DNA of 64,000 nt from a virus. Location of the stretch: positions 26,838 through 90,837 of IMG/VR virus record IMGVR_UViG_3300021067_000006. One strand, written 5' to 3'. The position numbers and the translations under genes are program-made. Positions 10,563-39,253 of this stretch are shown here, one piece after another; the stretch's first letter is position 1, and each line of letters starts with the position of its first letter. The notes beneath the pieces were generated by a model, which ran no database searches, was not told where the DNA came from, and was given only the letters and a program-made list of their open reading frames with translations.

Positions 10563-10643
10563 CCGGCTCAGCGCCGGGGTTACCGCCGCCGGCTCAGCGC
10601 CAGCGACAGAAGAGAGCATGGTCTATCTTGCGCTAGCGCGCAA
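10563..10643 (-). promoter_or_regulatory. promoter P1 with two GCTGA-loop hairpins
   Basis: Read on the minus strand: -35 TTGCGC (10638-10643), 17-base spacer, -10 CATGCT (10615-10620). The leader then carries two hairpins, at 10589-10603 (CTGGC-GCTGA-GCCGG) and 10563-10577 (CCGGC-GCTGA-GCCGG), before the Shine-Dalgarno of the 54-aa gene. It starts just after the stop of the gene at 10669. Confidence 0.7.
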
Positions 10644-10668
10644 CCGAAAAGCGAACACCGGTCACGGG

Positions 10669-10959
10669 TCAACCTGAAACCCGCTCGGTTTGCTCCTGCA
10701 ACGCGGCGCGTGCCTCGGCCCGCGAACCGTAGCGGCGAGCGCTGTCCGGCTCGGTGCCTCGGTACACGAGCCAAACGGCACCCGTCGACTCGATAATCGC
10801 GAGCCGGTCCGATGGTTCGTGCTCCGAACCGTCCGACCAGTCCCAGGCGCCGCGCCGGTCGAGCAGGTCGGCCAGCGCGCGCGAGGGGTCTTCGTCTTCG
10901 TCGAACTGGTCGAGGATGGCGTCGACCGCGTTGCGATCTAGGGCGCGTGCCATCGTCAC
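10669..10959 (-). CDS. hypothetical protein, 96 aa
   Basis: GTG at 10959 overlaps the upstream TGA; an ATG two codons in is an alternative. The first half is acidic (ILDQFDEDEDPS), followed by WLVYRGTEPDSARRYGSRAEA. No family recognised. Confidence 0.65.
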   Translation of the reverse strand: MTMARALDRNAVDAILDQFDEDEDPSRALADLLDRRGAWDWSDGSEHEPSDRLAIIESTGAVWLVYRGTEPDSARRYGSRAEARAALQEQTERVSG

Positions 10960-11249
10960 TCCGCCGCCTTTCGCCCGGCCGACACGAGCTCACGGCACGC
11001 GCGGCGGAAGTCGGCATCGCTGAGCCGGTGCAGCTCGGCGAGCAGAGCGCCGGTCATCCAGTAGTCGGGCGAGCCTCCCCACGAATCGAGCACGCCGTCC
11101 GCCTCGCGCGGCACGAGCGTTATCTCGCCGTCGATGCTGCGCTCACCGAGCCGCACCGTCACGTCGATGTCGACCGCGCCCTCGATGTCGATGCAGCTGC
11201 TCGGCGTCACCGCGCTCGCGTCGACCTCGATCACGAACTCGGCGTCCAT
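10956..11249 (-). CDS. hypothetical protein, 97 aa
   Basis: ATG at 11249 overlaps the upstream stop (TGATG). The N-terminal 60 residues read as a small beta-sandwich (FVIEVDAS...IDIEGAVDIDVTVRL), followed by a helical C-terminus. Unknown function. Translationally coupled to the 183-aa gene. Confidence 0.65.
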   Translation of the reverse strand: MDAEFVIEVDASAVTPSSCIDIEGAVDIDVTVRLGERSIDGEITLVPREADGVLDSWGGSPDYWMTGALLAELHRLSDADFRRACRELVSAGRKAAE

Positions 11250-11800
11250 CACGCGCTCCGCTTCTGCGACGCAGCCGCGTTCGCCCGGTATGCATCGAGG
11301 AACTGCGAGACGAGCAGGTCGCCGAACACGACGCTCGGCAGCATCGTCATCGAGTAGTCGTCGCCGTGCTGACCGCAGCGACCGATCCACAGCACGCGCC
11401 CCTTGTAATCCGGGAACGCCTTCGACAGCTCGGCCGCGAGCTTCAAGCCCTCATCGCTCGCAGGCAGCGTCACGAAACGGCGCGTATCGATGCCGCGGCA
11501 TTCGCTGTACCGGCCGCCGATCGCCTTCACCTTGCGCGCCCAGCCCTTGCGGGTGAAGTCGGGCGAGCCGTCGAGATGCAGCTCGACCTGCAGCGGACGC
11601 TCAGCGAGCTGCGCGCGCGTGCGCTCGAGCTCGCGACGCTTGCGCGCGTGCCGAAACACGTCGGCGCTGTGCTGCAACAGCATCGCGTCGATCCGCTCGA
11701 TGAAGCTGCCGACATACAGGCCGGCGTTCGCACGCTGCTGCAGCATCGCGCGCAGGTGTTGGGCGTCACGGTGGTCGAACGAGATGTACGAGGTAGGCAT
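11249..11800 (-). CDS. hypothetical protein, 183 aa, first gene of P2 transcript
   Basis: ATG at 11800 follows CGGAAAGG. The protein starts MPTSYISFDHRDAQHLRAML, with a basic helical middle and a mixed C-terminus. No motif recognised. It is the first gene after the second GCTGA-hairpin leader. Confidence 0.75.
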   Translation of the reverse strand: MPTSYISFDHRDAQHLRAMLQQRANAGLYVGSFIERIDAMLLQHSADVFRHARKRRELERTRAQLAERPLQVELHLDGSPDFTRKGWARKVKAIGGRYSECRGIDTRRFVTLPASDEGLKLAAELSKAFPDYKGRVLWIGRCGQHGDDYSMTMLPSVVFGDLLVSQFLDAYRANAAASQKRSA

Positions 11801-11816
11801 CAAGGGAACCTTTCCG

Positions 11817-11896
11817 CCGGCTCAGCGCCAGGCAACGTCGACCGGCTCAGCACCAGCGACGAAAGAGAGCATGGTTCATCATGCGTCAGCACGCAA
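11817..11896 (-). promoter_or_regulatory. promoter P2 with two GCTGA-loop hairpins
   Basis: -35 TTGCGT (11891-11896), 17-base spacer, -10 CATGCT (11868-11873). Hairpins at 11842-11856 (CTGGT-GCTGA-GCCGG, using G-U pairs) and 11817-11831 (CTGGC-GCTGA-GCCGG). The -35 lies inside the 3' end of the DnaA-like gene. Confidence 0.7.
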
Positions 11897-12397
11897 CCGA
11901 AAAGCGACAGCCCATTCGTCTGCAGCCTCTTTCGACTCGAACACGAGCAGGGTAGCCTTGAGCCGACCGGCCCGGGCGTCGATGAGCAGGCGCTCGAGCA
12001 TCACGACCGGCTCGGCCGGCACAGACCCCGGCACGGTCGACGCGGGCAGCGCGGCGCTCGGCACCGATATGCATCCGCGCGATTCCAAACTTGCCCGTGC
12101 ACGCGCCTCGGCCGCCTCGAGGTGCGCGCGCAGCTCGGGCTCGACCGCCACGCGGTTCGCGACGCGGCGCTCGGCCGATGCCACCGACGAATGGTCGCGC
12201 AGCATCTGCCGCCCCGTCTCCGATTGCGACAGCCCGAGCCTGCGGCAGAGATAGATCGCAAACGCGCGCGCGTTGAACAGCGCCGGAGAACGCGCGAGCG
12301 GCGAGTTGTGCGGCACGATGACAGCGCTCGTGACACCGAGCGCGGCGAGCACCGCGTCGCGCACCGCGCTCGGTTCGAGCCCTAGCTGAGCAGCCAT
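11879..12397 (-). CDS. DnaA domain IV-like DNA-binding protein, 172 aa
   Basis: Residues 45-85 (FAIYLCRRLGLSQSETGRQM, DHSSVASAERRV) match the helix-turn-helix of DnaA domain IV (compare the bacterial YLCRE...IG..F..RDHTTV signature). Domains I-III are absent, so this is not an initiator ATPase but could bind DnaA-box-like sites. The C-terminal half contains the palindromic repeat as in-frame codons (LESRGC). ATG at 12397 overlaps the upstream gene by 16 bases. Confidence 0.7.
   Translation of the reverse strand: MAAQLGLEPSAVRDAVLAALGVTSAVIVPHNSPLARSPALFNARAFAIYLCRRLGLSQSETGRQMLRDHSSVASAERRVANRVAVEPELRAHLEAAEARARASLESRGCISVPSAALPASTVPGSVPAEPVVMLERLLIDARAGRLKATLLVFESKEAADEWAVAFRLRADA
12068..12089. 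repeat. 22-bp palindromic element, copy 3
   Basis: TATGCA arm, CCGCGCGATT core and CCAAA arm; two mismatches to symmetry. Entirely inside the DnaA domain IV-like gene. Confidence 0.75.
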
Positions 12398-12594
12398 CGC
12401 GGCTCCCCCATGAACGGCCGCGGCATCGGCGCGAACACGAATAGCTCGAGCTCGGTAGAGACGAACACGTCTTCGCTCAGCAGCAGCAACGCACACGCGG
12501 CGCAGCAAGGCAGGTCGCCGAAGGCGAGCGCGACCGCCGGGTCGCCGCACTCGCCGTCGGTGTCGACGTCGACGATCATCTCGCAGGTGCGCAT
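12382..12594 (-). CDS. small protein, 70 aa
   Basis: ATG at 12594 overlaps the upstream stop; GTG at 12597 is an alternative. A short acidic N-terminus, a CCAAC cysteine cluster near the middle, then a hydrophobic/acidic C-terminal half. No family recognised. Confidence 0.65.
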   Translation of the reverse strand: MRTCEMIVDVDTDGECGDPAVALAFGDLPCCAACALLLLSEDVFVSTELELFVFAPMPRPFMGEPRWLLS

Positions 12595-12818
12595 CACGGA
12601 TCGAGCCTCACATCGACGGACCCCGGCACCACGCGCGCGCCGAACCGACCGACTAGCTCGCGCGCGACTTCGTCATAGATCCACGGCGCACCCGGCGACC
12701 AGCGCACCAGGCGCCGCGTGCCGCTCTGCCCGTGCAGCCGGAACGAGATGACGTGCCGATACCAGGGCACTCCCTCAACGATCTGGTACGGCCGGCGCGT
12801 GCGGCGAACGCGTGTCAC
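12594..12818 (-). CDS. small basic protein, 74 aa
   Basis: GTG at 12818 overlaps the upstream TGA. Basic N-terminus followed by VPWYRHVISFRLHGQSGTRR and RWSPGAPWIYDEVARELV. Predominantly beta then helical; unknown. Confidence 0.65.
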   Translation of the reverse strand: MTRVRRTRRPYQIVEGVPWYRHVISFRLHGQSGTRRLVRWSPGAPWIYDEVARELVGRFGARVVPGSVDVRLDP

Positions 12819-13051
12819 GCGCACACCTCGTCGACGGTTCCAAGCGCGGGCTCGCAGCGCGAGCGCGCCGTGCGCGCGAACACGAAGCCCGCGGCGTCGA
12901 CCTCGAGGCAGACCTCGCACGCGGGCGGCGGCCGGTCATTCACCTCGAACGCATCGGCGCGCTCGTGAACGAACGCGCCGCGCCCCGACCGCGCCGCGGC
13001 GTGCGCCTCGCCGATCGCGAGTCTCAGAGCCTCAAGCGCCATGCCCCTCAT
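12815..13051 (-). CDS. hypothetical protein, 78 aa
   Basis: ATG at 13051 overlaps the upstream TGA (ATGA); a second ATG at 13042 sits five bases after GCATCATGA and could be the true start. Contains PACEVCLEVDAAGFVFA. Unknown. Confidence 0.6.
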   Translation of the reverse strand: MRGMALEALRLAIGEAHAAARSGRGAFVHERADAFEVNDRPPPACEVCLEVDAAGFVFARTARSRCEPALGTVDEVCA

Positions 13052-13383
13052 GATGCGTCCCTCACGATCGCAGCTAGCAGCCGACGTTCGCTCTCGAGCG
13101 CGGCACTCGCCTCGGGCGGCGGCGGCAGCGTCGGCGCCTCGCGGTCGCGGTACGTGTCGAGCCGCGCGCGCAGCACCGACGACAGCCGCTGCAGCCGGTC
13201 GCGCCGCGTCTTCGCAGCAGCCATCTCGATCGAGCCGGGCAGCGCATGGATCACGCCCTGCAGCACGCCGACCCGTGCGCGTTGTACCTGAGCGTAAACG
13301 GCCGTCACGACCTCGCGGTCATCGAGCTCGAGCGCGAGCGCTGCCTCGTTCTCGAGCATGATGACGTCTTCGAAGCGCCTCAC
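13048..13383 (-). CDS. hypothetical helical protein, 111 aa
   Basis: GTG at 13383 overlaps the upstream TGA. The protein is helical and charged throughout, with a proline-rich linker (TLPPPPEA) before the last helix. No motif recognised. Confidence 0.7.
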   Translation of the reverse strand: MRRFEDVIMLENEAALALELDDREVVTAVYAQVQRARVGVLQGVIHALPGSIEMAAAKTRRDRLQRLSSVLRARLDTYRDREAPTLPPPPEASAALESERRLLAAIVRDAS

Positions 13384-13787
13384 GACAGACCCCCGAAAAC
13401 GCGCGGGTTGCTCTCAACCTCGCGCCGCGCGTTGGCGACAGCTTCCTCGACGGTCGCACCGCTGCCGATGACCGTGTCCTCGAACCACACCGCGAACGGC
13501 TGCACCGTGTCGTCGTCCTCGACGTGCAGCTCGCAGCCGGGAAGGAACGACAGGTCGGGCGAGAGCGCCGGCCAATAGAAGAACGCCGTGCGGTCAGGGC
13601 CGACCGTGCACGCGAACGAGTACGCGGCGGGGAGGCTCTGTTGATAGGCGAGCAGCATCGCGCGCGCGACGTGCATCGGATCGGTGATGCGGATACACGG
13701 CGCCGCCGTGCGGTTGTCCATCACCTGCCACTGCGCCGCGAGCCCTGCCTGCTCGAGCAGCGCGAACAGCTGCTGCGCCGGACTCAC
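13380..13787 (-). CDS. hypothetical protein, 135 aa
   Basis: GTG at 13787 overlaps the stop of the 67-aa gene. It starts with a helix, then alternates strands (AYSFACTVGPDRTAFFYW, GCELHVEDDDT) and ends with a helix. Cytoplasmic, unknown function; second gene of the P3 transcript. Confidence 0.7.
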   Translation of the reverse strand: MSPAQQLFALLEQAGLAAQWQVMDNRTAAPCIRITDPMHVARAMLLAYQQSLPAAYSFACTVGPDRTAFFYWPALSPDLSFLPGCELHVEDDDTVQPFAVWFEDTVIGSGATVEEAVANARREVESNPRVFGGLS

Positions 13788-13987
13788 AGCGCACCCCGGC
13801 CGGAGTAGCGGACGCCCTCGGTGAGGAGCCAGCACACGTACGAGTCGTACGTGAGCACGTCGTTGCGACGCAGCTCGGCGTCGACATACGCGGCGTACTG
13901 CGTGTTGATCGCGGGCGCGGCATCAGCCGGCGCCGGAACCGTGACGAAAGATTGGGTCGTCGTCGGCGCGGGAATCGTGGTGAACAT
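13784..13987 (-). CDS. 67-aa protein, first gene of P3 transcript
   Basis: ATG at 13987 follows GGGGAGGAGA, the strongest Shine-Dalgarno in this region, behind two leader hairpins. The N-terminal 30 residues are Thr/Pro/Ala-rich; the rest (YAAYVDAELRRNDVLTYDSY) is helical. Unknown. Confidence 0.75.
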   Translation of the reverse strand: MFTTIPAPTTTQSFVTVPAPADAAPAINTQYAAYVDAELRRNDVLTYDSYVCWLLTEGVRYSGRGAL

Positions 13988-14003
13988 CGGGCAATCTCCT
14001 CCC

Positions 14004-14081
14004 CCGGCTCAGCGCCGGGCTCGTCGTCGGCTCAGCGCCGTCGACACAACTGAGCATGCAGCATCATGCGCCGACGCGCAA
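14004..14081 (-). promoter_or_regulatory. promoter P3 with two GCTGA-loop hairpins
   Basis: -35 TTGCGC (14076-14081), 17-base spacer, -10 CATGCT (14053-14058). Hairpins at 14028-14040 (CGGC-GCTGA-GCCG, extendable outward past one A-A mismatch) and 14004-14018 (CCGGC-GCTGA-GCCGG). Confidence 0.7.
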
Positions 14082-14429
14082 CTAAAAAGTGTGCGGCGCG
14101 CGCGACCCCTCGAAAAGACGTGCGCACAACGCACACACCCACACTTCGGCCGCCGGGTCCCGCCGACCATCCGAGCAGCGCGACTCGAACAGCGGCTCGG
14201 CCGGCACCGCAGCGACCATCACGCGCCGGCACGGCGCACAGAACACGGGACCGCCGTGCGGCACGAGCCATCCGACGATGAGGCACGAGCGCCCACCGAA
14301 CACGCGGCCCGCCTCGACAGCCGACAGCCCACCGCCCGTGTTCGGTGACACCGGGCCAAAGCAGTCGACCTTGCTCGGTTGCCAGGCGAACAGGTCGAGC
14401 TGCCGATCGGACACCACGCGGCGCGACAT
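14082..14429 (-). CDS. protein with two CxxC motifs, 115 aa
   Basis: ATG at 14429 overlaps the upstream stop (TGATG). FCAPCRR in the middle and VCALCARLF near the end could bind zinc. The N-terminal 40 residues (RQLDLFAWQPSKVDCFGP) look like a short interaction segment. Function unknown. The -35 of P3 begins just beyond its TAG. Confidence 0.7.
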   Translation of the reverse strand: MSRRVVSDRQLDLFAWQPSKVDCFGPVSPNTGGGLSAVEAGRVFGGRSCLIVGWLVPHGGPVFCAPCRRVMVAAVPAEPLFESRCSDGRRDPAAEVWVCALCARLFEGSRAPHTF

Positions 14430-14995
14430 CACTCCCGCAGCAGCACCGCCACCGCGCGCAGGCGCTCGGCGCGCCGCTCGAGTTGCTCTGCGCGCCGGTT
14501 GCCCGAGCCCTTGAGCTGCTGCTCGATGAGCTCAGCGAGCCGCTCGGCAAGCTGCGACGGGGCGAGCACAGCCGCAGCTTCGACGTCACCGATCACGCTC
14601 TCGACCACCCGCGCTTTCGTGACCCACTGGTCGGGCTTTTCGGGGTCGTCGTGCCAAACACCGCTTCGTGCGATCGACGCGAAGCGCCCATCGTCGAGCA
14701 GGTAGAGACGCTCGCCACCGAGCGAACCGCTGTCGTCGCCGGGCCCCTCGGTAAACCCATCTTCGAGCAGCACGCCGCGCGGCTCACGCGGATCAGCGTA
14801 CATCCGTTCCTCTTGCCCACGAGCTCGCCGCATGCCCGCGACTTGAATCGCCGAGCAGAGCGCGGGCAGCGCCGGACGCACCGCCTCGACGATCGCGCGC
14901 ATCGCGTCGCCCGCCGCACGCTCGGCCTCGGCACCCGCGGCGAGCTTCCGATCGTGCTGCGCCGCGAGCTCTTCGACTTGTCTCTTGCTGGTCAT
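14429..14995 (-). CDS. hypothetical coiled-coil protein, 188 aa
   Basis: ATG at 14995 follows CAGGATGCACGACG (AGGA Shine-Dalgarno). Helical ends (AAQHDRKLAAGAEAERAAGD and AERLAELIEQQLKGSG) flank a central beta segment (GGERLYLLDDGRFASIAR). Function unknown. Confidence 0.7.
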   Translation of the reverse strand: MTSKRQVEELAAQHDRKLAAGAEAERAAGDAMRAIVEAVRPALPALCSAIQVAGMRRARGQEERMYADPREPRGVLLEDGFTEGPGDDSGSLGGERLYLLDDGRFASIARSGVWHDDPEKPDQWVTKARVVESVIGDVEAAAVLAPSQLAERLAELIEQQLKGSGNRRAEQLERRAERLRAVAVLLRE

Positions 14996-15033
14996 CGTCG
15001 TGCATCCTGAGTCGTGGTCGTCGCGCGCGCCGC

Positions 15034-15330
15034 TCACCCTGGCCTCGTCGGCTCGTCTTCGGACATGAGCGCCTGAGCGCGCGCATCCTGCAGCGACGTG
15101 AGCGAGCGACCGCTGCGCACGCAAACGCCGTCGACGTAGAAGCTCGCGACGTAAACGCCGTTGCGCTTCGACGTGCGCACGCACGCCGTATCGCCGTGCT
15201 GGTCGAGCCATTCCATCTCGCGCCTGCAGGTCTCTGCGTTGCGCTCTGCGACCATGCGATGCACGCGCTCCTGCACACTCTCGATCGAAACCGGGGCGCC
15301 GTTCGCCGAACGCCGATAGTTGCCGTCCAT
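15034..15330 (-). CDS. 98-aa protein, first gene of P4 transcript
   Basis: ATG at 15330 follows GAAAGG behind two leader hairpins. The middle is basic and helical (VQERVHRMVAERNAETCRRE), then GVYVASFYVDGVCVRSGRS suggests a small beta-hairpin unit. Unknown. Confidence 0.75.
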   Translation of the reverse strand: MDGNYRRSANGAPVSIESVQERVHRMVAERNAETCRREMEWLDQHGDTACVRTSKRNGVYVASFYVDGVCVRSGRSLTSLQDARAQALMSEDEPTRPG

Positions 15331-15347
15331 TGGGGGGAACCTTTCAT

Positions 15348-15425
15348 GCCGCTCAGCGCGGCGTGTGAAACCGAGCTCAGCGCCCGGCGAGAGTCGACAC
15401 TAGCTCATGATGCTCCGACGCGCAA
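15348..15425 (-). promoter_or_regulatory. promoter P4 with two GCTGA-loop hairpins
   Basis: -35 TTGCGC (15420-15425), 17-base spacer, -10 TAGTGT (15397-15402). Hairpins at 15372-15386 (CGGGC-GCTGA-GCTCG, one G-U pair) and 15348-15362 (GCCGC-GCTGA-GCGGC). The second stem differs from the common CCGGC/GCCGG at two base pairs with both partners changed, which is good evidence for a selected RNA hairpin. Confidence 0.75.
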
Positions 15426-15426
15426 G

Positions 15427-16002
15427 CTATTCGCTCTCACCGGGCGGAAGCGCGGGCATAGCCGCCGGTGCTTCCGCCACCTCGACGCCTGCAGCGTCGA
15501 CCACACCCGGGTCGGGCATGCGCACAAGCATCAGCCGCACGCGGTCGAGCAGCCCAGTGCCCGGCACCCGCGCTTTCTCGAGCGCGGTCTGCGCCTCGAT
15601 CGCTTCCGTCATCAGCCGCGTCGCAGCTTCAGCCTGCCGCTGCGCGACGGGCATGTCGCCCGACAGCGCACGCACGGCGCGCATGAACGCCGTCACGACG
15701 ATGCCCTCGAGCTGCGTGACACGCTTGCCTAACAACGCATTCCGCTCTTCTAGCTGCTGAAGTTTCCGAGCTTCCTGCCACGCGTTCCGTGAACGCTCGA
15801 CGTCACCGCGTTGCTTGGCCTCGAGCAAATTGAGCGCACGCGCCGCGAAGCTGAGCTCGACACGCGCAGCCTCCGAAGTTCCAGCGACGAGCGGGCGCGC
15901 GCGTTCTTCGAGCTCGAGCAGCTCACGACGCAAACGCTCGAGCTCGGAGCTCGGCTCGATGATCGCGTTCGTCGGCGGCAGTAGTTTCGGCACGTCCGCC
16001 AT
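15427..16002 (-). CDS. coiled-coil protein downstream of terminase, 191 aa
   Basis: ATG at 16002 (a GTG at 15993, five bases after GCATCATGG, is an alternative). Residues 20-150 form a long heptad-like helix region (LERLRRELLELEERARPLV, LQQLEERNALLGKRVTQLEG); the tail is Pro/Ala-rich. It directly follows the terminase nuclease gene, so a packaging or scaffold role is possible. No motif confirms this. Confidence 0.7.
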   Translation of the reverse strand: MADVPKLLPPTNAIIEPSSELERLRRELLELEERARPLVAGTSEAARVELSFAARALNLLEAKQRGDVERSRNAWQEARKLQQLEERNALLGKRVTQLEGIVVTAFMRAVRALSGDMPVAQRQAEAATRLMTEAIEAQTALEKARVPGTGLLDRVRLMLVRMPDPGVVDAAGVEVAEAPAAMPALPPGESE

Positions 16003-16009
16003 GATGCCG

Positions 16010-16861
16010 TCACCGCTCTGCGATCTGCGCGGCGATGCTCTCCGCCGCACTCGTCCCGTAGTAATCGCGCCCGGCGCGCAGCATGCCGCTCGCGCGTGCC
16101 TGCTCGCGCGCCATCCATGCAGCCATCAACGTGTCGCCCGTGTGCGCGTTCGGTGTGTACGCGAGCAGGTCGTCGACGAACGTCTGCACGCCCGGCGCGC
16201 AGCGCCCGCGCTCGTCCGCGGGGATGAGCCATGCACCGTTCTCGAGCTCAACGAGCAGCGACTCGACGCCGAACAGCGGGTTGCGCTTGTTGCGTGCAGA
16301 CGTCTCGTGCGAGCGCACGCGCAGCGTCGCGTCGAGCTCGAGCGACCACTGCCTGAGGTAGTCCTGGAACGCGTTCGTCTCGATGCGCACGATCGACTCA
16401 AACCGATCGTGATGCGACCGCACGAGCTCGATGAGCGCGCGACCGCCCATGCGCCCCGAGTTGACGTCGAGCACGAGGCGACGATTATCAGCGAGCACGG
16501 CGAACGTGAACACCGAGCAAAGGTCCGACCCCTTCCGGCGCGACGCGGCGAGGTCGACGCCGGTGAACGCACCGCCCCGTTCCCATCGCGCCTGCGGTCG
16601 GTCGTAGTCGAGCTCGCGCGCGCGTGCTTTCGCCGCTCGGATCCATTCGTCTTTGACGCGCGCGCTCGTGTCGTCGCGCGTCCGGTTGCCGTACGCACGC
16701 GCGAACTCCGAGCCGCCGCCCATCATCGTGCGGATCTCAACGAGCTTCTCGCGCGGGAACTTGCCCGGCCAAAGCGGCACGATGTCGTGCGCGTCGACCC
16801 AGCCAGCGCTCTCCGACGCCACAAGCGCCGCATCGCTCGGCGACAGCGCCGCTGGTTTCAC
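16010..16861 (-). CDS. large terminase, separate nuclease subunit
   Basis: 283 aa. The core is an RNase H-fold nuclease of the TerL type: FTGVDLAASRRKGSDLCSVF (first catalytic Asp at GVD), then SIVRIETNAFQDYLRQW with the second acid, and TFVDDLLAY plus HTGDTLMA for the remaining acid(s). The ATPase half is absent and is encoded by the gene just upstream, whose TGA overlaps this GTG (GTGA). Together the two equal an ordinary one-gene TerL. Confidence 0.8.
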   Translation of the reverse strand: MKPAALSPSDAALVASESAGWVDAHDIVPLWPGKFPREKLVEIRTMMGGGSEFARAYGNRTRDDTSARVKDEWIRAAKARARELDYDRPQARWERGGAFTGVDLAASRRKGSDLCSVFTFAVLADNRRLVLDVNSGRMGGRALIELVRSHHDRFESIVRIETNAFQDYLRQWSLELDATLRVRSHETSARNKRNPLFGVESLLVELENGAWLIPADERGRCAPGVQTFVDDLLAYTPNAHTGDTLMAAWMAREQARASGMLRAGRDYYGTSAAESIAAQIAER

Positions 16862-17805
16862 AGCGCCCCCGCGCGCATCTCTTCGGCGGCTTGCTCGATG
16901 AGCTCACGCCGATCATTCGCGACGAGTCGATGCACTCCCGAGTCGCCGCCGATGAGCGACGGTCGAATGTCGGGCGAATCGAAGTCGTCGGCGTTCTTGA
17001 AAAAGACGTTGCCCCACGCGTCCATGCTGCAGCTCGGCCATCCGATTTTCTCGAGCTCGTACGTGACATCCTCCGGATGCCATGGCGTGTTCGTCACGCA
17101 GCAGCGCGCGCCCTTCTCGCCGAGCCGCGTGACCACCGTCGAAAGTACCCACTTGTTTACCTTGCGACGCTGCTCCGCGGTGCTCGTGTTCTGCTCATCG
17201 AGGATGTCGTCGACGTTCGCCCAGTTCAGGCGCGAGCCCGGTAGGCGCTTGCTATCGAGCCCGAGCGCGACGCACGATGGATCGCGAATGCCGTACGGTC
17301 GATCGATCGTGATGGCCGTCTGCGTCCACGGCTCTCCGTCGCGCTGCGTCGGCAGAAGCTGCGGGTAAACGAGCCGGAGCTCCGGGCTATCCTCGATGTA
17401 CGAACGCACGGCGAGCAGCGGCTTGCTCGCCTGATCTTCGCTGCTCGAGATGAACGCGCCGCGCGTCGTCTTGCTTTTCCCGAGCTGCCACAACGTGAGC
17501 CCAGTCATGCAGAACGACTTAGAAAACCCGACGGGCAAACGCAGCACCGTAAACGGGTAGTGCCGCACGAAGTCGAACAGCACGCGCTGATGCGGCAGCG
17601 TCACGATACGCACGCGCGTTGTCTCCTCGCGCATCACGTACCCAAAAAAGTGCTTTGGGCTCTCACGCGCGAGCGCGACGCGCCGCATGTTCCACTCGAC
17701 TAGCAGCCGCTCCTCATCCGACAGCGCGGCGAGCCGCGAGAACGGCGCGCCGCGCGGCGGGTTGTGAATGCTGTCGAGGTACTGCTCGGGGCTCGGCTGT
17801 GCCAT
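16858..17805 (-). CDS. large terminase, separate ATPase subunit
   Basis: 315 aa. PKHFFGYVMREE and IVTLPHQRVLFDFVRH lead into an atypical Walker A (LPVGFSKSFCMT, where GFSKS replaces the usual GxGKS/T), an adenine/arm region (GAFISSSEDQASKP) and a Walker B WANVDDILDEQN followed by a coupling motif (CCVTNTPWHPEDV). It ends where the nuclease domain would begin. ATG at 17805 follows GAAAGGAA. It powers DNA packaging with the nuclease subunit. Confidence 0.85.
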   Translation of the reverse strand: MAQPSPEQYLDSIHNPPRGAPFSRLAALSDEERLLVEWNMRRVALARESPKHFFGYVMREETTRVRIVTLPHQRVLFDFVRHYPFTVLRLPVGFSKSFCMTGLTLWQLGKSKTTRGAFISSSEDQASKPLLAVRSYIEDSPELRLVYPQLLPTQRDGEPWTQTAITIDRPYGIRDPSCVALGLDSKRLPGSRLNWANVDDILDEQNTSTAEQRRKVNKWVLSTVVTRLGEKGARCCVTNTPWHPEDVTYELEKIGWPSCSMDAWGNVFFKNADDFDSPDIRPSLIGGDSGVHRLVANDRRELIEQAAEEMRAGAL

Positions 17806-17880: not shown

Positions 17881-18453
17881 TTAGCTCGACTCTGGACGCC
17901 ACGCGCGTAGCTGCGCGAGGACACGCAGATACGTCGCCCGCCGAGCGCCGACGTCGCGCAGGCTACCCGAGCAGCCGCGCCCGCCGTACGCCGAGAAGAC
18001 ACGGTCGATCCACTGCTCGCCGCCGTGCGCCTCGAACGAGCGGCAGAGCCACCGCGCTCGCGTGATCGCCCGCACCGCGGCGCCCGCGGCAACGCTCGTC
18101 GGCTGCAGGCCTGCACCGACGAGCGCGTCGAACACCTCGTCGGAAACGACAGCGCCGCGTTGCAGCTGCCAAGGGCTTCGCGCCCGGCCGCGGTCGCACT
18201 CCCACGGCTTGCACTGCCCCTCGTGAATCCTCAGCGAGAAGCGCGATTCCGAGTCGCCGATGGTGATCGCGAACGCGGCTAGCTGCTCACGCGGCCACGG
18301 CCAGCGAGGCTCAGCCTGCACCGCGACGGCGAGCGCATCGGCGACGACCGCGAGCTGCGCACGCTTGAGCTCGTGGTGCTCGCGATCTTCGTGGAACACA
18401 GGTCGGGCGAGGAGCGCGGCGAGGATCGCGCCGGCTGCGATGGTGCTGGACAT
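17881..18453 (-). CDS. endolysin-like lytic transglycosylase, 190 aa
   Basis: IGDSESRFSLRIHEGQC then ECDRGRARSPWQLQRG and FSAYGGRGCSG follow the pattern of SLT-type transglycosylases, with Glu69 as the likely catalytic acid. A weak hydrophobic N-terminus (IAAGAILAALLARPVF) could act as a signal anchor. It would cut host peptidoglycan at lysis. A 75-base gap separates it from the terminase ATPase gene, and ten bases from the gene upstream. Confidence 0.7.
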   Translation of the reverse strand: MSSTIAAGAILAALLARPVFHEDREHHELKRAQLAVVADALAVAVQAEPRWPWPREQLAAFAITIGDSESRFSLRIHEGQCKPWECDRGRARSPWQLQRGAVVSDEVFDALVGAGLQPTSVAAGAAVRAITRARWLCRSFEAHGGEQWIDRVFSAYGGRGCSGSLRDVGARRATYLRVLAQLRAWRPESS

Positions 18454-18462
18454 GCCCGGGGT

Positions 18463-19035
18463 CTACTCCGCTTCGGCCGCCTGCGGGGGTTGACCGTCGT
18501 ACAGCACATCCGGCTGCGACGCGCGCTGCCCGCTCGACACGAGCGTCGTCGTGGAAGTCGGCTGCTCCGCCGCCGCTGTCGCCCGCGAACCACGACGAGC
18601 GCGCTCGCGCACGAACTCCGGCGCCGCCGGGATCTCCCTTCCGTTCTTCGCTGCACGCACCGCGCGACGTGTCCACGCGAGCACCTCGGCCCTCTGACTC
18701 TGAGACCACGCCCGGATCGTAGAGATGGACGGCGGTCGCTCGAGCACTTCAGAAAGCCTCTGCTTAAGCAGAATGGGTTCGTCGATGGTGGCCTCGACAC
18801 CATCGACACGAGCCGCCGTCACACGCGTCTCGGTTGCAGGCGTCGCATTGAGTTGCTGCGCCGAGAACTTGAGCAGCGCTCCGTTCTCGGCGAACACCAC
18901 TTCGGCGTCGAGCGGTTGCGCCCTAAGGTGCTCGGGAATCATGTCGAGCGTGCGCGCACCCGCGATGATCGCATCGGTCAATTCGGCCATCGAAAGCACG
19001 ATCGCATCGCGCAATACAGGATTACGTTCGGTCAT
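18463..19035 (-). CDS. hypothetical protein upstream of endolysin, 190 aa
   Basis: ATG at 19035 is preceded by GCATCATCG plus five bases. The N-terminal half is helical; residues 95-135 (LERPPSISTIRAWSQSQRAE) resemble a helix-turn-helix; the C-terminal 50 residues are low-complexity. It could be a packaging or DNA-binding accessory, given its place between the candidate small terminase and the endolysin. Confidence 0.7.
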   Translation of the reverse strand: MTERNPVLRDAIVLSMAELTDAIIAGARTLDMIPEHLRAQPLDAEVVFAENGALLKFSAQQLNATPATETRVTAARVDGVEATIDEPILLKQRLSEVLERPPSISTIRAWSQSQRAEVLAWTRRAVRAAKNGREIPAAPEFVRERARRGSRATAAAEQPTSTTTLVSSGQRASQPDVLYDGQPPQAAEAE

Positions 19036-21451: not shown

Positions 21452-23530
21452 CTACCGGAACCGGTCGAGGAACGGCTCGACCGCAGCAATCGAACGCGCC
21501 CGCGGCATGTGCGGCAACGCCTCGATGAACTTCGCGCCGTAGGGCTTCGTCACCATCCGCCGATCGCACACCACCACGACGCCGTAATCGCTCACCGAAC
21601 GGATCAACCGGCCGACCCCCTGCCGCATGCGCAGCACCGCGCGCGGCAGGTAATAGTTCCGGAACCACCGCGAGTCGACGGCCTTGCGCGCATCGAGCAC
21701 CGGGTCGGATACAGGATCGAACGGCAGCCGGTCAATGAGCAGCGCGGTCAGCGACTCACCCGGCACGTCGACGCCTTCCCAAAGGGACTCGGTGCCGAGC
21801 AGCACGCTGTCACGCTCGCGCCGGAACTGATCGACCAACTGCGTGCGCGGCGCATCGCCCTGGCACAGCACGGGATAGGGGAGCCCCGCCCGCATCAACC
21901 GATCGCGCACCGCGTTCAACACGCGATAGCTCGTGAACAACCCGAGCGTGCGGCCGCGCGCGACTTCAACGAGCTCGACCAGCGCGCCGCTTACCTCGGC
22001 CGCGAACGCTTGGTTGTTCGGGTCGCAGAGCGGCGGGGTCACGAGCAGGCATCGCGAGTAATCGAAAGGGCTCTCGACAGCGAGCCACGCGAAATCATCG
22101 ACGCCGAGCTCAGCCGCAACGAACTCGAACCCGTCTTCGCCCGGGCCATCAGCGAGCGTCGCCGACACGAGCGCCGCACGCTTCGGCGATTCCTTCGACT
22201 CCCACAGCCCACGCCGCAGAAACCCCGCGGCGGTCATTGGCTCGGCAACGAGCGACACCATCGTGCCGCCGGGGCGTGTCTCGTTCTCGACGAAGTAGAC
22301 CCATTCCTCGCCATCGAGCAGCTCACGCGCTGCCGCGATGAGGCCCGCGTGCCGCAGGCAGAGGTCGCGCCGCTGCCTCAGAAACTCGCGGCCCGCCGCC
22401 GGCGTGCCGCCGTTCTCGGATGCATCACCAAGCCTCGTCGCCGCGAGGCGCATCAGGCGCTCGAGCTCGGAGCCGTCGAACATGCGCTCGCAGTCGAGCC
22501 GCGCCTCGTACCGCTTCGACATCTCGAGCTGCGCGAGCTCATAAAAAAAGGCGTCGGCTGCGCCGAGCACCTCGTTACGCAGGTCGGGGTCGATGTTGCG
22601 CGGTACGCCGAGCCGCTCGGCTCGTTTGGTACCACCGACGAGCAGGTCGACCGCGGTGCGCGCGCCGCCCGGCGAAAGCCTGCGGGCGAAGTATTGGCGC
22701 GCGATGTCACCCGCACGGTGCGCCTCATCGAATACCAAGTTGCTGTGCAACGGAAGCACGCCGCGCGCACCTCCCATTCGCAGCTCAAGATCGATGAAAT
22801 ACAGGTGATAATTCGTGACGACGATGTCGACCTGCTCGAGCTGCTTGCGCGCCACGCGCGGGAAGCACGAGCCGTCGTTGTAGTGCATGCACTTTTTGCC
22901 GAGGCAGTCCTCGCTCGACACCGTCACCGCGCGGCGCACGCTCGGCATGAGCTCGAACGGCAGCTCGGAAATGTCGCCGAGCTCGCTGCCCTCCGCCCAC
23001 TCGATCACGCGCTCGAGTTGCTGCTGCTCACGCAGCACCGGCAGGCGCTTGCCGATCAGCCGCTCGTTCTGCGCGACGTCGAGCGCCTCACGGCAAGCGT
23101 AGTTCTGGAACCCTTTGGCGATCGCAAACGTGAAGCCAACCCCCTCGACGCCGAACGCGCGCTGCAGCATCGGCAGGTCTTTCCCGACGAGCTGTTCCTG
23201 CAGCGCGATGTTCGCGGTCGCGACGATCGTACGCTCGTGCCGCGCGAGCGCCGCGCGCACTGCCGGCACGAGGTACGCGACCGACTTGCCGACGCCCGTC
23301 GGTCCCTCGGCGAGCAGCGTACGCTGCCCGTCGAGCTCGCCCGAGAAGATGCGGTCGACCGCCGACGAGAGCAGCACCTGCCCCTCGCGTTTCCGGTAAC
23401 CACTCACCTCAGCAGCAAGGGGCCCGCCTTCTGCGAACATCGCCTCGACGTCGAAGTCGTGCACCTCGCGCGTGAGCGACGGGGACAACTCCACGTCGTC
23501 GGGGTCGATGTCTTCGGCTGATAAGGTCAC
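21452..23530 (-). CDS. DinG/XPD-family SF2 helicase, 692 aa
   Basis: Walker A EGPTGVGKS at 75-83, DEAH at 268-271, and RMRQGVGRLIRS near the C-terminus (motif VI). Cysteines 146, 209, 214 and 222 lie where DinG/XPD enzymes hold a 4Fe-4S cluster. Such enzymes unwind DNA 5' to 3' and remove R-loops or other obstacles. GTG at 23530 overlaps the receiver-domain gene and is preceded by CATTCT plus six bases. Full length for the family. Confidence 0.9.
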   Translation of the reverse strand: MTLSAEDIDPDDVELSPSLTREVHDFDVEAMFAEGGPLAAEVSGYRKREGQVLLSSAVDRIFSGELDGQRTLLAEGPTGVGKSVAYLVPAVRAALARHERTIVATANIALQEQLVGKDLPMLQRAFGVEGVGFTFAIAKGFQNYACREALDVAQNERLIGKRLPVLREQQQLERVIEWAEGSELGDISELPFELMPSVRRAVTVSSEDCLGKKCMHYNDGSCFPRVARKQLEQVDIVVTNYHLYFIDLELRMGGARGVLPLHSNLVFDEAHRAGDIARQYFARRLSPGGARTAVDLLVGGTKRAERLGVPRNIDPDLRNEVLGAADAFFYELAQLEMSKRYEARLDCERMFDGSELERLMRLAATRLGDASENGGTPAAGREFLRQRRDLCLRHAGLIAAARELLDGEEWVYFVENETRPGGTMVSLVAEPMTAAGFLRRGLWESKESPKRAALVSATLADGPGEDGFEFVAAELGVDDFAWLAVESPFDYSRCLLVTPPLCDPNNQAFAAEVSGALVELVEVARGRTLGLFTSYRVLNAVRDRLMRAGLPYPVLCQGDAPRTQLVDQFRRERDSVLLGTESLWEGVDVPGESLTALLIDRLPFDPVSDPVLDARKAVDSRWFRNYYLPRAVLRMRQGVGRLIRSVSDYGVVVVCDRRMVTKPYGAKFIEALPHMPRARSIAAVEPFLDRFR

Positions 23531-30503: not shown

Positions 30504-30506
30504 GAC

Positions 30507-30749: not shown

Positions 30750-30761
30750 TTCGAATTCTCC

Positions 30762-32116: not shown

Positions 32117-32156
32117 CGGTTCTGTTCTCCGTTCTTCGTTCGGTTTCCGTGCAGAG

Positions 32157-32174: not shown

Positions 32175-32175
32175 T

Positions 32176-33033: not shown

Positions 33034-33040
33034 GCCGCCG

Positions 33041-35482
33041 TCAGAAGCCAAACCCCATCTGCTCGCGCGGCACCGGTCGTCCACGTTCACGCGGGCGAGA
33101 GCGTCCGAAGCTGCGATGCCAGTCGTAGTCGGGGAAGCACACCTCGAGCACGCGCTCGGTGGGCGGCCACACCAGCGTCTCCCAGAGGTAGTGCCGATCT
33201 TCGGTGCCGGGTTCGAACTCGAACAGCCCAACGACCTTCTGCGGCGAGCGCGCACCGTCCACGACCACGTACTCGATGCGCACGCCTTGGCTCACGTCCA
33301 TGCCGAGCTCGCGCATGCGGCGCGCGAGCTCGACGTGCACGGCCTGCGATGCCCACTCATCGCCGTGCTTTTTCTTACGGCGCGCGTAGCCCTCGATCTC
33401 GCGGCTAAGCTGCTTGCTCAGCACGAAGTCGTCGCGCTCGAGCCGACCCTTGAGCACGCGCGCGCGCCATCGATCGGCAAGCTCGCAGAAGTCGCGATGC
33501 GTGTACGGCAGCACAGCCGGCGCTTCCGGCCGGTCCATGCACAGCAGGACCCTGACGGCTTCCTCTTGCATCTCGCGAGCGAGTCGCGCGGAGTCGCCGC
33601 GCTTGAACTCGAGCCCCTTGATCTCGGGGCGCGACAGCTCATTCGCGCGCTTGCCGTCGAAGTGCTCGAACCGTCCGGCGTAGCGTTTCTTTTTGACGTA
33701 AACGAGAATCGAGAATCGCTTCTCGTAAGCGAGCTTGACGCCGAACGGCGGACGACAGCCGCAGCTCGCGAGCAACTTCGGATACAGCTCACGGTTGCAC
33801 GCTTCGACGAACGTACGGAACCGCTGTTCTTCGACGCCCGCGGCGAACACCGAGTCGGTGTCGACTGCGATCGTCTCGATGCCGTGCTGCTCGCGACCGT
33901 ACGCAATCGTCGACTTGATCAGCCACACGCCGGCCTGCGCCACCGACTCGGCGATCTGCCGGCGAAAAAACCTCGAGAACGGCGACCCGACGACGCCGTA
34001 AAACGAGTTGTTGATCTGCTTGTATGCCGTGCTCCGACGGTCCGCGTCTTTCCACTCGTCAGTGCCTGGAACCGCTGCAGCTTTCGCGCGCTTCCACTGC
34101 TCGCGCAACCGCGCGATCTCTTCGACTGCGACGACGAGCAGCCCTTTCGGTTCGGTGCGGAACACCTCGCCCGTCATCGGCACGCGGCAGTAGCCCGGCG
34201 GCGGAGGCACGAGCTCGACACGAGGGTCAACGTTGGGCGCGATGAGACGCTGCGCAGCCTCGGGAACATGCGTCTCGAGCGACATGTTCCACGCGACGAT
34301 GTTGCGCGGGTACATCGCCGCGAAGTCGGCAACGTCGACACCGCGAAGCACACCCTTGTGCTTCGGCTCCATGACGTAAGCGCCGGCGAATGGGTCGGCT
34401 TCGCCCGGCGTTTGGAAGCGCGATGGGAAGTGACCGCCGCCGCGCTCGCGCGCGAGCCGCAGGATGAACGACTCCACGAAGCTCGTCGCCCGCATACCGC
34501 GCGCATCGGGGAACGTGCCGCACACGAGGCACAACTCGATCATCAGCTCGATGAAGCCGGTGCGCTTCTCAATGCGCCACGCGAGCTCAGTGTCGACGAC
34601 GTTGTAATCGCTGAGCAGCGCGCGCTGCTCGCCACCGGCGGCCCAGTAATCCCAGGACTTGCGCGCTTCAACGGAAAGCTTCGCGACGTCGGCCTCGCCG
34701 TGCAGCACACGCGCTGCCACGCGGCCGAGCGCCATGCTCTGCTTCTCCTCGCCGCTCTCGGATGCCGAGATGTTTCCCTTGCGAAAGATGGCGAGGTGAT
34801 CGGCCGTGAGCCAGCGCCTCAGGTTCACGCGGATACCGAGCCGCGCGACGCGCGCGCCAAGCACCGGGAAGTCGAAGCCGTGCTCGTCATCCTCCCAATC
34901 GTCGCCGCCGTACCACGCGAGCACGAGGTCGACCGACATGAGCTCGTCGAATAGGTCCTCGAGCAGCAGCGTCTCGGCCTCGTCGGTGTCGTGCTCGAGC
35001 ACGCCTCTGACCTTCTCGCCGTCCTCGAACGTGAGCGACCAGCACAGCACGCGCGCCTCGCTCTTCTGCGACATCGGCACACGCGAATCCGTCTCGATGT
35101 CGAGGATCGCCCAACGCGGGCGCTGCACCGAGAACCCGCGCTCGACCATCACGCGGCGCACCGGGTTCAGGTCGCCTTCATACGTGGCGATGCCGCGCTG
35201 CTCGAAGTAGCCGCCGCGCCCACAGAACGACCGCGCGACGTCGTAGCTCGCCCAGCGCAGCCGAACCCAATCGCCCTCGATCGCGTAGCCGCGCACCGCG
35301 CGCGATCGCTTCGCCTGCGCTTCGATGTCCGCGGCGAAGTCCTCGCGTCGGATGTGGCACGCGTACTCGGCGGGGAACAGATGCTTGCTGACAGAGCCGT
35401 CCTGCTCACGGCGCAGCAGCACCACGCGGTCGCCAGCGACGAACCCGTTGACGAAAAATTGAGGCGGACCCGACCCGTTCAT
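33041..35482 (-). CDS. family B DNA polymerase with 3'-5' exonuclease, 813 aa
   Basis: Exo I DIETD (128-132), Exo II around HGFDFPVL, Exo III SDYNVVD (291-297); polymerase motif A DFAAMYP (386-392), motif B around KQINNSFYG (488-496), motif C DTDS (541-544), and KKKRYAG. All catalytic acids are present, so a proofreading replicative polymerase. The ATG at 35482 overlaps the stop of a 25-codon leader ORF and sits in a strong inverted repeat. Confidence 0.95.
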   Translation of the reverse strand: MNGSGPPQFFVNGFVAGDRVVLLRREQDGSVSKHLFPAEYACHIRREDFAADIEAQAKRSRAVRGYAIEGDWVRLRWASYDVARSFCGRGGYFEQRGIATYEGDLNPVRRVMVERGFSVQRPRWAILDIETDSRVPMSQKSEARVLCWSLTFEDGEKVRGVLEHDTDEAETLLLEDLFDELMSVDLVLAWYGGDDWEDDEHGFDFPVLGARVARLGIRVNLRRWLTADHLAIFRKGNISASESGEEKQSMALGRVAARVLHGEADVAKLSVEARKSWDYWAAGGEQRALLSDYNVVDTELAWRIEKRTGFIELMIELCLVCGTFPDARGMRATSFVESFILRLARERGGGHFPSRFQTPGEADPFAGAYVMEPKHKGVLRGVDVADFAAMYPRNIVAWNMSLETHVPEAAQRLIAPNVDPRVELVPPPPGYCRVPMTGEVFRTEPKGLLVVAVEEIARLREQWKRAKAAAVPGTDEWKDADRRSTAYKQINNSFYGVVGSPFSRFFRRQIAESVAQAGVWLIKSTIAYGREQHGIETIAVDTDSVFAAGVEEQRFRTFVEACNRELYPKLLASCGCRPPFGVKLAYEKRFSILVYVKKKRYAGRFEHFDGKRANELSRPEIKGLEFKRGDSARLAREMQEEAVRVLLCMDRPEAPAVLPYTHRDFCELADRWRARVLKGRLERDDFVLSKQLSREIEGYARRKKKHGDEWASQAVHVELARRMRELGMDVSQGVRIEYVVVDGARSPQKVVGLFEFEPGTEDRHYLWETLVWPPTERVLEVCFPDYDWHRSFGRSRPRERGRPVPREQMGFGF

Positions 35483-35554: not shown

Positions 35555-35556
35555 AC
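35479..35556 (-). CDS. 25-aa leader peptide upstream of DNA polymerase
   Basis: GTG 35556 lies five bases after GCATCATAG and opens a 25-codon frame (MRRTRTRRPHQPPAP...) whose TGA overlaps the polymerase ATG (ATGA). It is Arg/Pro-rich and may be a leader whose translation opens the hairpin rather than a functional protein. Confidence 0.4.
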   Translation of the reverse strand: MRRTRTRRPHQPPAPGFPSPALPSA

Positions 35557-35561
35557 AAGTC

Positions 35562-37519: not shown

Positions 37520-37599
37520 GACGGCGACTTCCGTGCGAAAGTGAGGCGCTGCGGCTCGCCAACCCTCGAGAGGGGAGGGAAGGCGAGCCGCAGCGCCAT
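37516..37599 (-). CDS. 27-aa leader peptide upstream of sigma factor
   Basis: ATG 37599 follows GAGGGG. The 27-codon frame (MALRLAFPPLSRVGEPQ...) runs through the whole hairpin and its TGA overlaps the sigma-factor ATG (ATGA). Possibly a regulatory leader; it could equally be chance, since the hairpin constrains the codons. Confidence 0.35.
   Translation of the reverse strand: MALRLAFPPLSRVGEPQRLTFARKSPS
37545..37597 (-). promoter_or_regulatory. 16-bp stem-loop before sigma factor
   Basis: GGCGCTGCGGCTCGCC pairs perfectly with 37582-37597; the 21-nt loop itself holds CCCTC/GAGGG. It lies between the DUF932-like stop and the sigma start. There is no T-tract, so it is a terminator-like or attenuation element rather than a classical intrinsic terminator. 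Confidence 0.65.
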
Positions 37600-37607
37600 C
37601 GGGCCCC

Positions 37608-39176
37608 TCAGATAGTGATCGCCTCGAACGGCAGAGCGCGGCGCTTCTGGTCGAGCAACAGGCGACCGGCAGCAGCCTGCACCTCATCCTCGAGCCACGG
37701 GTCCGTGTTGACCTCGTGAGCCCAGCGCGTGAAAGCGTTGACGACCGCGGCGCGGGTCACGCCGCGCGCGGGGTCGGGGCGCCCGTCAACGAGCGAGCTG
37801 CGCGTCGCGCTGCTCACGTCGCGGTCGTACATCGACAGCAGCTGTCGCACGACCTCGGGGCGCTTGCCTCGCACCGGCACGAGCTCGCGCTCGATGCAGC
37901 CGTTGAACGCAGCCGCGAGCACCTCGCGCGCCGGCCGGGACATCAGCTCTTCGTCGGCGGCGCTGAGCACGTTCTCGTGCGTGGCCAGGTTCCAGGCCCG
38001 CACGAAGTGATCGATCTTGCCGAGCGCCGCAGCGAACTCATCGTCGAACCGTTCGGCGAGCGCCTCGACGCTGCCGACGTGACGGATGCGAGCGACCTCC
38101 TGCGAGGCCTCATCGAGGATGATGAGGTTTAGGCAGAGGTTCTGCCAAACAACCGCGCTCACGACGATCGAGCCCGAGCCATCGTCGCGCGTGCGCACCG
38201 TGACGCCCGCTTTAAAAAACTCGCCGGCGACGTAGTTCTCGGGCTGCACGTCGCTGTGAAACAGCGCCTCGATGCGCGTGCGCACGCCGTCGTACACGAC
38301 CCCGCCGCGCGCGCCGTCGGCGTAGCCGAGCGTGTTGAGCGAGCGCCGTACCGCCGCAGCGACGCGATCCGAGTCGAACGTCGCGTACTTCGGACCAACG
38401 ACGCCGAACACCTCGGGCTTGTCCTCGGGCCCGCGCAGGCGCAGCTTCGCGTCGCCCCGCTGAGCCTGTGCACCATCGTCGCCCGCGAGCCAGTGGTTGA
38501 CGTTCGTCGCGCGCAGCCGCGGCGTGCAGCGCTCGAGGTACTCACGGCCTCCGATGCCCGAGCGCGTCAGCAGACCGCCGAACCCGACCACCGAAGGGAA
38601 CCCGACGAGCCGGTGCACGTCACCCTCGGTGCGAACGAACGCGCCATCGCTGCGCATGCGCAGCTCGCCGAGCGGCATGTCGAGGTCGCGCCGGTTCTCG
38701 TCGACGATGCGCCGCTCGAACGCGACACAGCTGTCGACCGTGCGATCCATGGCCGACCACTCGAGACGCGACGTGCGCGCGTTCTCGACGCCGACATCGA
38801 TCACGCGCGAGCCCCGAGCGTAAACCGTCTGCTTCGGCGCAAAGCCATTCGCTTCCGCTGCCGCCTTGTCAGCGAGAGACCGGGCACGGCCTTCCTCGCT
38901 GATGCCGCCTTCCTGCCGCGACACCCGCGGCACGCGGCCAGCCGGCGGCGCGATGACAATGGGAGCAGTCGAGCCATCGCCAAGCGCGTGCGGCGCCGGC
39001 TGTGCAGCGGGCGCCGGTATGGCGCCGCGCGGTTGCATATCGTTCGAAGCGACCGGGGTCACCTTTGGAACGCCACCACCCGCGAGCTTCACGAGCTCGT
39101 CGCACGTCGCGAACGTCTGCTCGGCCGATACGATCCGCTTCTCATTCCCCAGGGTCACGATGTACTGCTGTTGCAT
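37608..39176 (-). CDS. DUF932-like phage/plasmid protein, 522 aa
   Basis: After a variable N-terminal 110 residues, segments such as FGVVGPKYATFDSDRVAAAV, EALFHSDVQPENY and SAVVWQNLCLNLI have the order and character of DUF932 proteins, which occur near replication/recombination genes of plasmids and phages, function unknown. ATG 39176 is the only gene directly behind promoter P5. The degenerate palindrome at 39018 lies in its codons MQPRGAIP. Confidence 0.6.
   Translation of the reverse strand: MQQQYIVTLGNEKRIVSAEQTFATCDELVKLAGGGVPKVTPVASNDMQPRGAIPAPAAQPAPHALGDGSTAPIVIAPPAGRVPRVSRQEGGISEEGRARSLADKAAAEANGFAPKQTVYARGSRVIDVGVENARTSRLEWSAMDRTVDSCVAFERRIVDENRRDLDMPLGELRMRSDGAFVRTEGDVHRLVGFPSVVGFGGLLTRSGIGGREYLERCTPRLRATNVNHWLAGDDGAQAQRGDAKLRLRGPEDKPEVFGVVGPKYATFDSDRVAAAVRRSLNTLGYADGARGGVVYDGVRTRIEALFHSDVQPENYVAGEFFKAGVTVRTRDDGSGSIVVSAVVWQNLCLNLIILDEASQEVARIRHVGSVEALAERFDDEFAAALGKIDHFVRAWNLATHENVLSAADEELMSRPAREVLAAAFNGCIERELVPVRGKRPEVVRQLLSMYDRDVSSATRSSLVDGRPDPARGVTRAAVVNAFTRWAHEVNTDPWLEDEVQAAAGRLLLDQKRRALPFEAITI
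39018..39039. repeat. 22-bp palindromic element, degenerate copy
   Basis: TATGG and GCATA arms flank CGCCGCGCGGTT: same arms and spacing as the other copies but a changed core. In the 5' part of the DUF932-like gene. Confidence 0.45.
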
Positions 39177-39194
39177 CTCTTGCGTCTGCTTTCT

Positions 39195-39253
39195 CCGGCT
39201 CAGCGCCGGGCACCAACAAGAGACACCCTAGAGCATCTTGCGTCGTCGCGCAA
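39195..39253 (-). promoter_or_regulatory. promoter P5 with one GCTGA-loop hairpin
   Basis: -35 TTGCGC (39248-39253), 17-base spacer, -10 TAGGGT (39225-39230), then one hairpin CCGGC-GCTGA-GCCGG (39195-39209) that abuts the Shine-Dalgarno region GGAGAAAG. The A-rich stretch upstream of the -35 could act as an UP element. Confidence 0.7.

Follow-up and report, generated by a model that had tools for sequence, protein, structure and literature searches.

The window analysed here is a stretch of 64,000 nucleotides (nt) of viral DNA, positions 26838-90837 of the 90,837-bp IMG/VR virus record IMGVR_UViG_3300021067_000006, in which five minus-strand leaders carry nine hairpins with the five-base loop GCUGA (GCTGA in the DNA). 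The whole analysis is computational, and gene starts are predictions made in it. The window has a G+C content of 68% and ~127 predicted genes, almost all of them minus-strand, and encodes a terminase-like protein, a portal, a major head protein, a baseplate wedge, a family B DNA polymerase, a DnaB-like helicase and a primase. This set of structural and replication genes points to a tailed phage, probably with a contractile tail.

Five leaders with GCUGA hairpins

All features of the five leaders lie on the minus strand. Leader 1 begins with a promoter-like element (10615-10643; -35 TTGCGC at 10643-10638, a 17-bp spacer, -10 CATGCT at 10620-10615) that contains the -35 palindrome TTGCGC-GCTA-GCGCAA. 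It is followed by hairpin 1 (10583-10609; loop GCTGA, stem of up to 11 bp), hairpin 2 (10563-10577; CCGGC[GCTGA]GCCGG), a Shine-Dalgarno sequence (TAGGAG, 10562-10557) and the ATG (10548) of a gene of 54 amino acids (aa; 10384-10548). Leader 2 has the same arrangement: a promoter-like element (11868-11896; TTGCGT-17-CATGCT, palindrome TGCGT-GCTG-ACGCA), hairpin 1 (11841-11857; CTGGT[GCTGA]GCCGG), hairpin 2 (11817-11831; CTGGC[GCTGA]GCCGG), AAAGG (11813-11809) and the ATG (11800) of a 183-aa gene (11249-11800). In leader 3, the promoter-like element (14053-14081; TTGCGC-17-CATGCT, palindrome TGCGC-GTCG-GCGCA) precedes a first hairpin of only 4 bp (14028-14040; CGGC[GCTGA]GCCG) and a second one (14003-14019; CCCGGC[GCTGA]GCCGGG) that leads into GGAGGAG (14002-13996) and the ATG (13987) of a 67-aa gene (13784-13987). 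Leader 4 consists of a promoter-like element (15397-15425; TTGCGC-17-TAGTGT) whose palindrome has one mismatch, hairpin 1 (15370-15388; CGGGC[GCTGA]GCTCG), hairpin 2 (15348-15362; GCCGC[GCTGA]GCGGC), AAAGG (15344-15340) and the ATG (15330) of a 98-aa gene (15034-15330). No family was found for the genes of these four leaders. Leader 5 has a promoter-like element (39225-39253; TTGCGC-17-TAGGGT, palindrome TTGCG-N6-CGCAA) and a single hairpin (39195-39209; CCGGC[GCTGA]GCCGG) beside the start region of a 522-aa, DUF932-like gene (37608-39176; ATG at 39176).

The sequence-only reading of this DNA had reported nine such hairpins with five-base-pair stems, and all nine are present where it placed them. 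The stems are indeed paired; their length varies from 4 to 11 bp, with at least 5 bp in eight hairpins and 4 bp in the one at 14028-14040, whose stem (ACGGC/GCCGA) the earlier list had omitted. Also missed was the promoter-like element, which is found in every leader as TTGCGY-17-CATGCT or TTGCGY-17-TAGKGT, with the palindrome over the -35 and spacer. Its spacing is typical of sigma-70-type promoters. When we searched the 90.8-kb genome for TTGCG-N7-GCA-N2-AT, a pattern blind to the hairpins, exactly five sites were found and hairpins followed at all five. The unit starts just past, or overlapping, the end of the upstream gene and extends to the start codon, with predicted 5' untranslated regions (UTRs) of about 42-61 nt if transcription starts are taken from the -10 alone. 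All five leaders represent a single expression cassette, in which a short, hairpin-built predicted 5' UTR directly follows a promoter-like element with a -35 palindrome. The genes they lead are mostly small and without a family, and where a family was found none is structural.

Two neighbouring minus-strand genes may bear on the promoters. Downstream of the DUF932-like gene, in the leader 5 operon, gene 36872-37519 matches sigma-70 region 2 (Pfam E 6.7e-7), with the DNA polymerase B gene further downstream; it has homologs in 8 of the ten relatives described below, and its product may be a phage-encoded sigma factor serving one class of promoters. Gene 39275-39670, immediately upstream of leader 5, encodes a small protein with two helix-turn-helix stretches, a candidate binder of the -35 palindrome.

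A constant loop on covarying stems

The window has 184 copies of the pentamer GCTGA where 195 are expected, so the sequence by itself is not enriched. As the loop of a leader hairpin it is exceptional, with 9 occurrences; when the five leaders were dinucleotide-shuffled 300 times, the count for any loop averaged 1.3 and never exceeded 2. The stems vary in a compensatory manner, as had been claimed earlier: a double change is present in 4 of 6 pairs, and the covariation score of 0.417 exceeds both the shuffled value of 0.163 (0/500 shuffles match it) and all slid versions. A covariance model of the hairpin, a search proposed with the original observation, recovered exactly these nine hairpins (22.9-28 bits) in 1.0 Mb comprising the window genome and ten relatives; the next match scored 17.9 bits, and nothing else convincing was found in this sequence. 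No Rfam family matched within the window at gathering thresholds.

The two loops of a leader are separated by 23-26 nt. We rejected a kissing interaction between them, as the loops lack mutual complementarity.

One explanation of such leaders needs no dedicated protein: a 5' stem-loop would protect the mRNA and a small hairpin would display or insulate the ribosome-binding site. Hairpin 1 begins only a few nt from the predicted transcript start, a position in line with such passive structure. The explanation does not account for a GCUGA loop that is invariant in 9/9 hairpins of the window phage, and we regard it as unlikely.

A related module in two relatives

No close relative of the window phage was present in the phage collection, and none was found by single-protein searches of IMG/VR with the products of genes 37608-39176, 11249-11800 and 33041-35482. 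The sequence collections were probed by exact patterns or via one helicase family, and the ten relatives (G001-G010) were reached by helicase alignment only, which extended to 79 loci. Nine of these ten best records (G001-G009) have gene order or many genes in common with the window phage; the number of shared genes is 41-51 for G001-G008, 17 for G009 and few for G010. With the eight relatives that share most genes, the window phage appears to fall in an undescribed group of 84-98 kb phages. One further gene with a weak homolog in G009, 23527-23901 on the minus strand (beginning MLLVADDEPLVLRALERVL), probably encodes a lone response-regulator receiver domain; the Response_reg match (E 4.7e-14) came from a joint scan of small proteins, so that its assignment to this gene is probable.

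A module of the same layout is present in two of the ten relatives, with 12 leaders in G005 and four in G009. There the loop is GAGGA, or GCGGA in three G005 first hairpins. After the promoter comes hairpin 1, only a few nt from where transcription is predicted to start, and then hairpin 2, at a loop-to-loop distance of 19-23 nt. Hairpin 2 has the form N-C-G-[GAGGA]-C-G-N, with C-G, G-C or A-U as its third pair, and its loop is itself the Shine-Dalgarno sequence, 4-10 nt before the start codon. A promoter-side repeat of G005, GAGACG-N4-6-GAGACG, has ten copies, and a search with it, again blind to hairpins, found the module at all ten (10/10). Some G009 leaders have a -35 palindrome resembling CGAACGTTCG.

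With a covariance model of this module (R1), the leaders of G005 and G009 are recovered, among them one G009 leader outside the training set; no convincing match came from the remaining eight relatives or from 69 additional loci with the helicase. A search of IMG/VR with a GAGGA-module pattern returned real modules in G005 and G009 only. Exact DNA patterns for tandem GCTGA hairpins, or for promoter plus hairpin, gave no genuine second copy among the matches listed for IMG/VR and GTDB genomes; the matches inspected were chance or low-complexity repeats. The leader 5 orthologs of other relatives have different hairpins with no common loop.

Eight of the ten relatives lack the module. Several of them have, in its place, a perfect palindrome of at least 14 bp in 6-20 copies, many of which lie in leaders. 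In G006, G004, G007, G002 and G001 this palindrome is phage-specific and repeated 14-20 times (for example, GATGATCGATCATC and TTGGATCGATCCAA). These palindromes are likely DNA operators, comparable to inverted repeats reported from phages of Clusters O and EG. Such repeats, together with the similar -35 palindromes of the window phage, raise the question of whether the hairpins are likewise inverted repeats bound by a dimeric DNA-binding protein. We do not favor this, because the asymmetric centre of the hairpins is constant and their arms vary with compensation and G-U pairs. The hairpin copies also lie downstream of the -10, and we consider a duplex-DNA operator highly improbable.

Covariation across the three phages

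Stem covariation is also strong across the three phages. For hairpin 1 (18 distinct rows), 6 of 7 pairs contain double changes, with 34 doubly changed cells in total, and the score is 0.793, compared with 0.277 for shuffled (0/500) and at most 0.254 for slid alignments; one G009 first hairpin (leader at 26559), with a mismatched closing pair, was excluded. For hairpin 2 (16 rows) the score is 0.696 vs 0.145 shuffled (0/500). The paired fractions, 94.4% of cells in hairpin 1 and 87.5% in hairpin 2, are inflated, because rows were partly picked for having stems; the promoter-defined sets (5/5 and 10/10) provide an independent check. In every copy G1, G4 and A5 of the loop are constant, giving G-N-N-G-A. 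The sequence-only reading had named non-compensatory stem changes in relatives as the outcome that would count against it; in both module-bearing relatives, G005 and G009, the changes compensate. With stems that change in compensating ways around a fixed loop, the pattern points to an element acting at the RNA level and associated with starts, and the proposal of an RNA recognition element is upheld.

Proposed translational control at the start site

We propose, with moderate confidence, that the leaders are two-site translational operators recognized by an RNA-binding protein of the phage. From a promoter with a palindrome on its -35, a short 5' UTR would be transcribed, built of two hairpins (leader 5 has one) with the loop G-N-N-G-A, the second of which touches or contains the ribosome-binding site. 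A loop-specific and probably phage-encoded protein would bind both hairpins together, and, once bound, would control, most likely repress, the translation of mostly small, non-structural phage genes. Such an operator would account for a loop that is constant on variable stems, for the narrow hairpin spacing and for the overlap with the Shine-Dalgarno sequence in G005 and G009. Consistent with this, hairpins and promoter-like element always occur together (5/5 in the window phage, 10/10 in G005).

Antitermination had been the other role suggested at first; in this reading the hairpins would act like lambda nut/boxB or HK022 put and let RNA polymerase pass downstream terminators. The hairpins do stand right after a promoter in operon leaders, and their pentaloops are compatible with a GNRA-like fold. 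The boxB loop of P22, GACAA, adopts such a form with its third base out (PMC12550061), and G-N-(N)-G-A loops may possibly fold in the same way. The hairpins resemble lambda and P22 boxB further in their stem of ~5 bp and a five-base loop with G first and A last. Unlike at boxB, the leaders have two hairpins each (one in leader 5) and the second one tracks the start codon, being the Shine-Dalgarno loop itself in G005 and G009. A boxA is absent from all 21 leaders: in the predicted UTRs the best match to GCTCTTTA, a consensus that may not be the host's, has at least 3 mismatches, no better than random sequence of the same composition. Intrinsic terminator-like sites are at chance (6 vs 5.9 expected in window positions 3000-17500; 5 vs 6.6 in G005), and many G005 units are short, each with its own promoter. 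As the sequence-only reading had noted for the window, no N-like protein is evident, here by Pfam and PHROG matches in the three phages, which is weak evidence because N proteins diverge beyond family models. With 5' UTRs of only ~38-61 nt in addition, antitermination becomes improbable, and the alternative offered alongside it, translational control, fits better. Because two distant relatives share the layout, there wrapped around the ribosome-binding site, the module is more suggestive of an RNA switch acting on a group of phage genes than of a lambda-type antitermination site.

The 5' UTR of G005 and G009 consists entirely of the two hairpins with the Shine-Dalgarno sequence in the second loop, as passive structure would also have it. 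Passive structure does not explain why hairpin 1 of these phages, away from any start, has a Shine-Dalgarno-like loop as well. That loop brings host CsrA into consideration, which itself acts through two-site translational operators (PMC7652899), with one loop site on the Shine-Dalgarno sequence and one upstream. As in CsrA/RsmA dual-site leaders such as glgC, two loop sites are close together and one lies on the Shine-Dalgarno sequence in G005 and G009; GGA is in the loop, and the second site is 19-23 nt away, within the 10-63 nt range reported for dual-site bridging by CsrA (PMC7652899). The spacing in the window phage is also within this range, with the Shine-Dalgarno sequence outside the loop. 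However, loop position 1 is always G and never the A of ANGGA (ANGGAN in full), the loops (GCUGA 9/9 here, GAGGA or GCGGA in the relatives) have five nt and not six, hairpin 1 stems are long, the GCUGA loops have no GGA at all, and no CsrA family match was seen in the phage. CsrA-type regulation is thus left with a very slim probability. Membership in the nut/boxB, CsrA and duplex-DNA operator classes was rejected.

Several points weigh against the two-site operator. In the window phage, the second hairpin adjoins the Shine-Dalgarno sequence on its 5' side and does not hold it inside the loop. When whole leaders are folded with 30 nt of coding sequence, most show no unusual stability, and the minimum-energy fold disrupts some of the hairpins. 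The GCUGA and GAGGA models do not detect each other's modules, and the two modules may not share descent; the pairing percentages are inflated as described above. Nor do the best 25 family rows for the small proteins of the three phages include a known RNA-binding family.

The same caution applies to the weak lead that we have for the partner, which comes from co-occurrence. The second gene of the leader 4 operon (14429-15037, minus strand, 202 aa) belongs to a family detected in exactly the three module phages and in none of the other eight genomes. Its G009 homolog (18176-18739; blastp E 4e-9) lies a few genes downstream of a G009 module; its G005 homolog (57230-57730; profile E 1.4e-6) is remote, and the more sensitive profile search was run for this family only. 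As 11 families occur in exactly 3 of the 11 genomes and 165 triples are possible, the chance of a family matching the module phages is ~0.07. The predicted structure (mean predicted local distance difference test score 73.5) combines a long N-terminal helix with a small beta sheet and helices at the C-terminus, and a fold search with it gave no significant match (best E 0.25 in PDB and 0.025 in BFVD).

Relation to start-associated elements

The nearest described elements are the start-associated SAS and ESAS of Cluster K mycobacteriophages (TM4, Adephagia) and the SAS-like elements of Cluster EF Microbacterium phages (PMC7302621). SAS, GGGATAGGAGCCC, has AGGAG between GGG and CCC, 3-7 bp before the start, and its role is unexplained; ESAS is an upstream inverted repeat containing a promoter, found at about half of the SAS sites (PMC3203893, PMC11373665). 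The module likewise occurs in several copies per genome, as an element at the ribosome-binding site of non-structural genes (5, 12 and 4 leaders in the three phages), with an inverted-repeat promoter upstream in all five window leaders (one with a mismatch) and in some G009 leaders. The flanked AGGAG of SAS also resembles the GAGGA inside hairpin 2 of G005 and G009. In contrast to SAS, a fixed 13-bp sequence, the module keeps only its loop constant and has stems that differ between copies and covary. It also has a separate hairpin 1, of the same loop type, after the promoter, and the window phage has its Shine-Dalgarno sequence outside the loop. Departures from SAS in TM4 are not compensatory, so there is no covariation in SAS there. 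Some SAS sites of TM4 (near 1969, 18500, 22081 and 22671) are preceded by inverted repeats similar to TGTTGA-N4-TCAACA that overlap a -35-like hexamer, TTGAC, much as the -35 palindrome does in the window phage. We file the module, on the present comparisons, as a form of the start-associated phage elements with support for RNA structure.

T4 RegA and T4 gp43 are known phage-encoded regulators that act at ribosome-binding sites of phage genes; gp43 uses an upstream hairpin together with the ribosome-binding site (PMC3014915). Unlike RegA, whose sites are unstructured and AU-rich, and gp43, which controls its own gene, one hairpin code would here serve 4-12 genes. More tentatively, and with less confidence than the operator itself, we suggest a phage RNA regulon: one new phage protein would read paired G-N-N-G-A hairpins and switch translation of 4-12 genes, the specificities of loop and protein would change together between phages (GCUGA here, GAGGA in the relatives), and SAS-type elements may be of the same kind.

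In actinobacterial phages, start-associated repeats have been on record since 2011 with their role unexplained, and fixed sequences cannot tell action on DNA from action on RNA. In the module described here, compensating stems around a fixed loop point to RNA action, and in two relatives this loop coincides with the Shine-Dalgarno sequence. The module gives a concrete and testable model of a phage-wide translational switch that would operate through a loop code, possibly with a small RNA-binding protein of a new kind.

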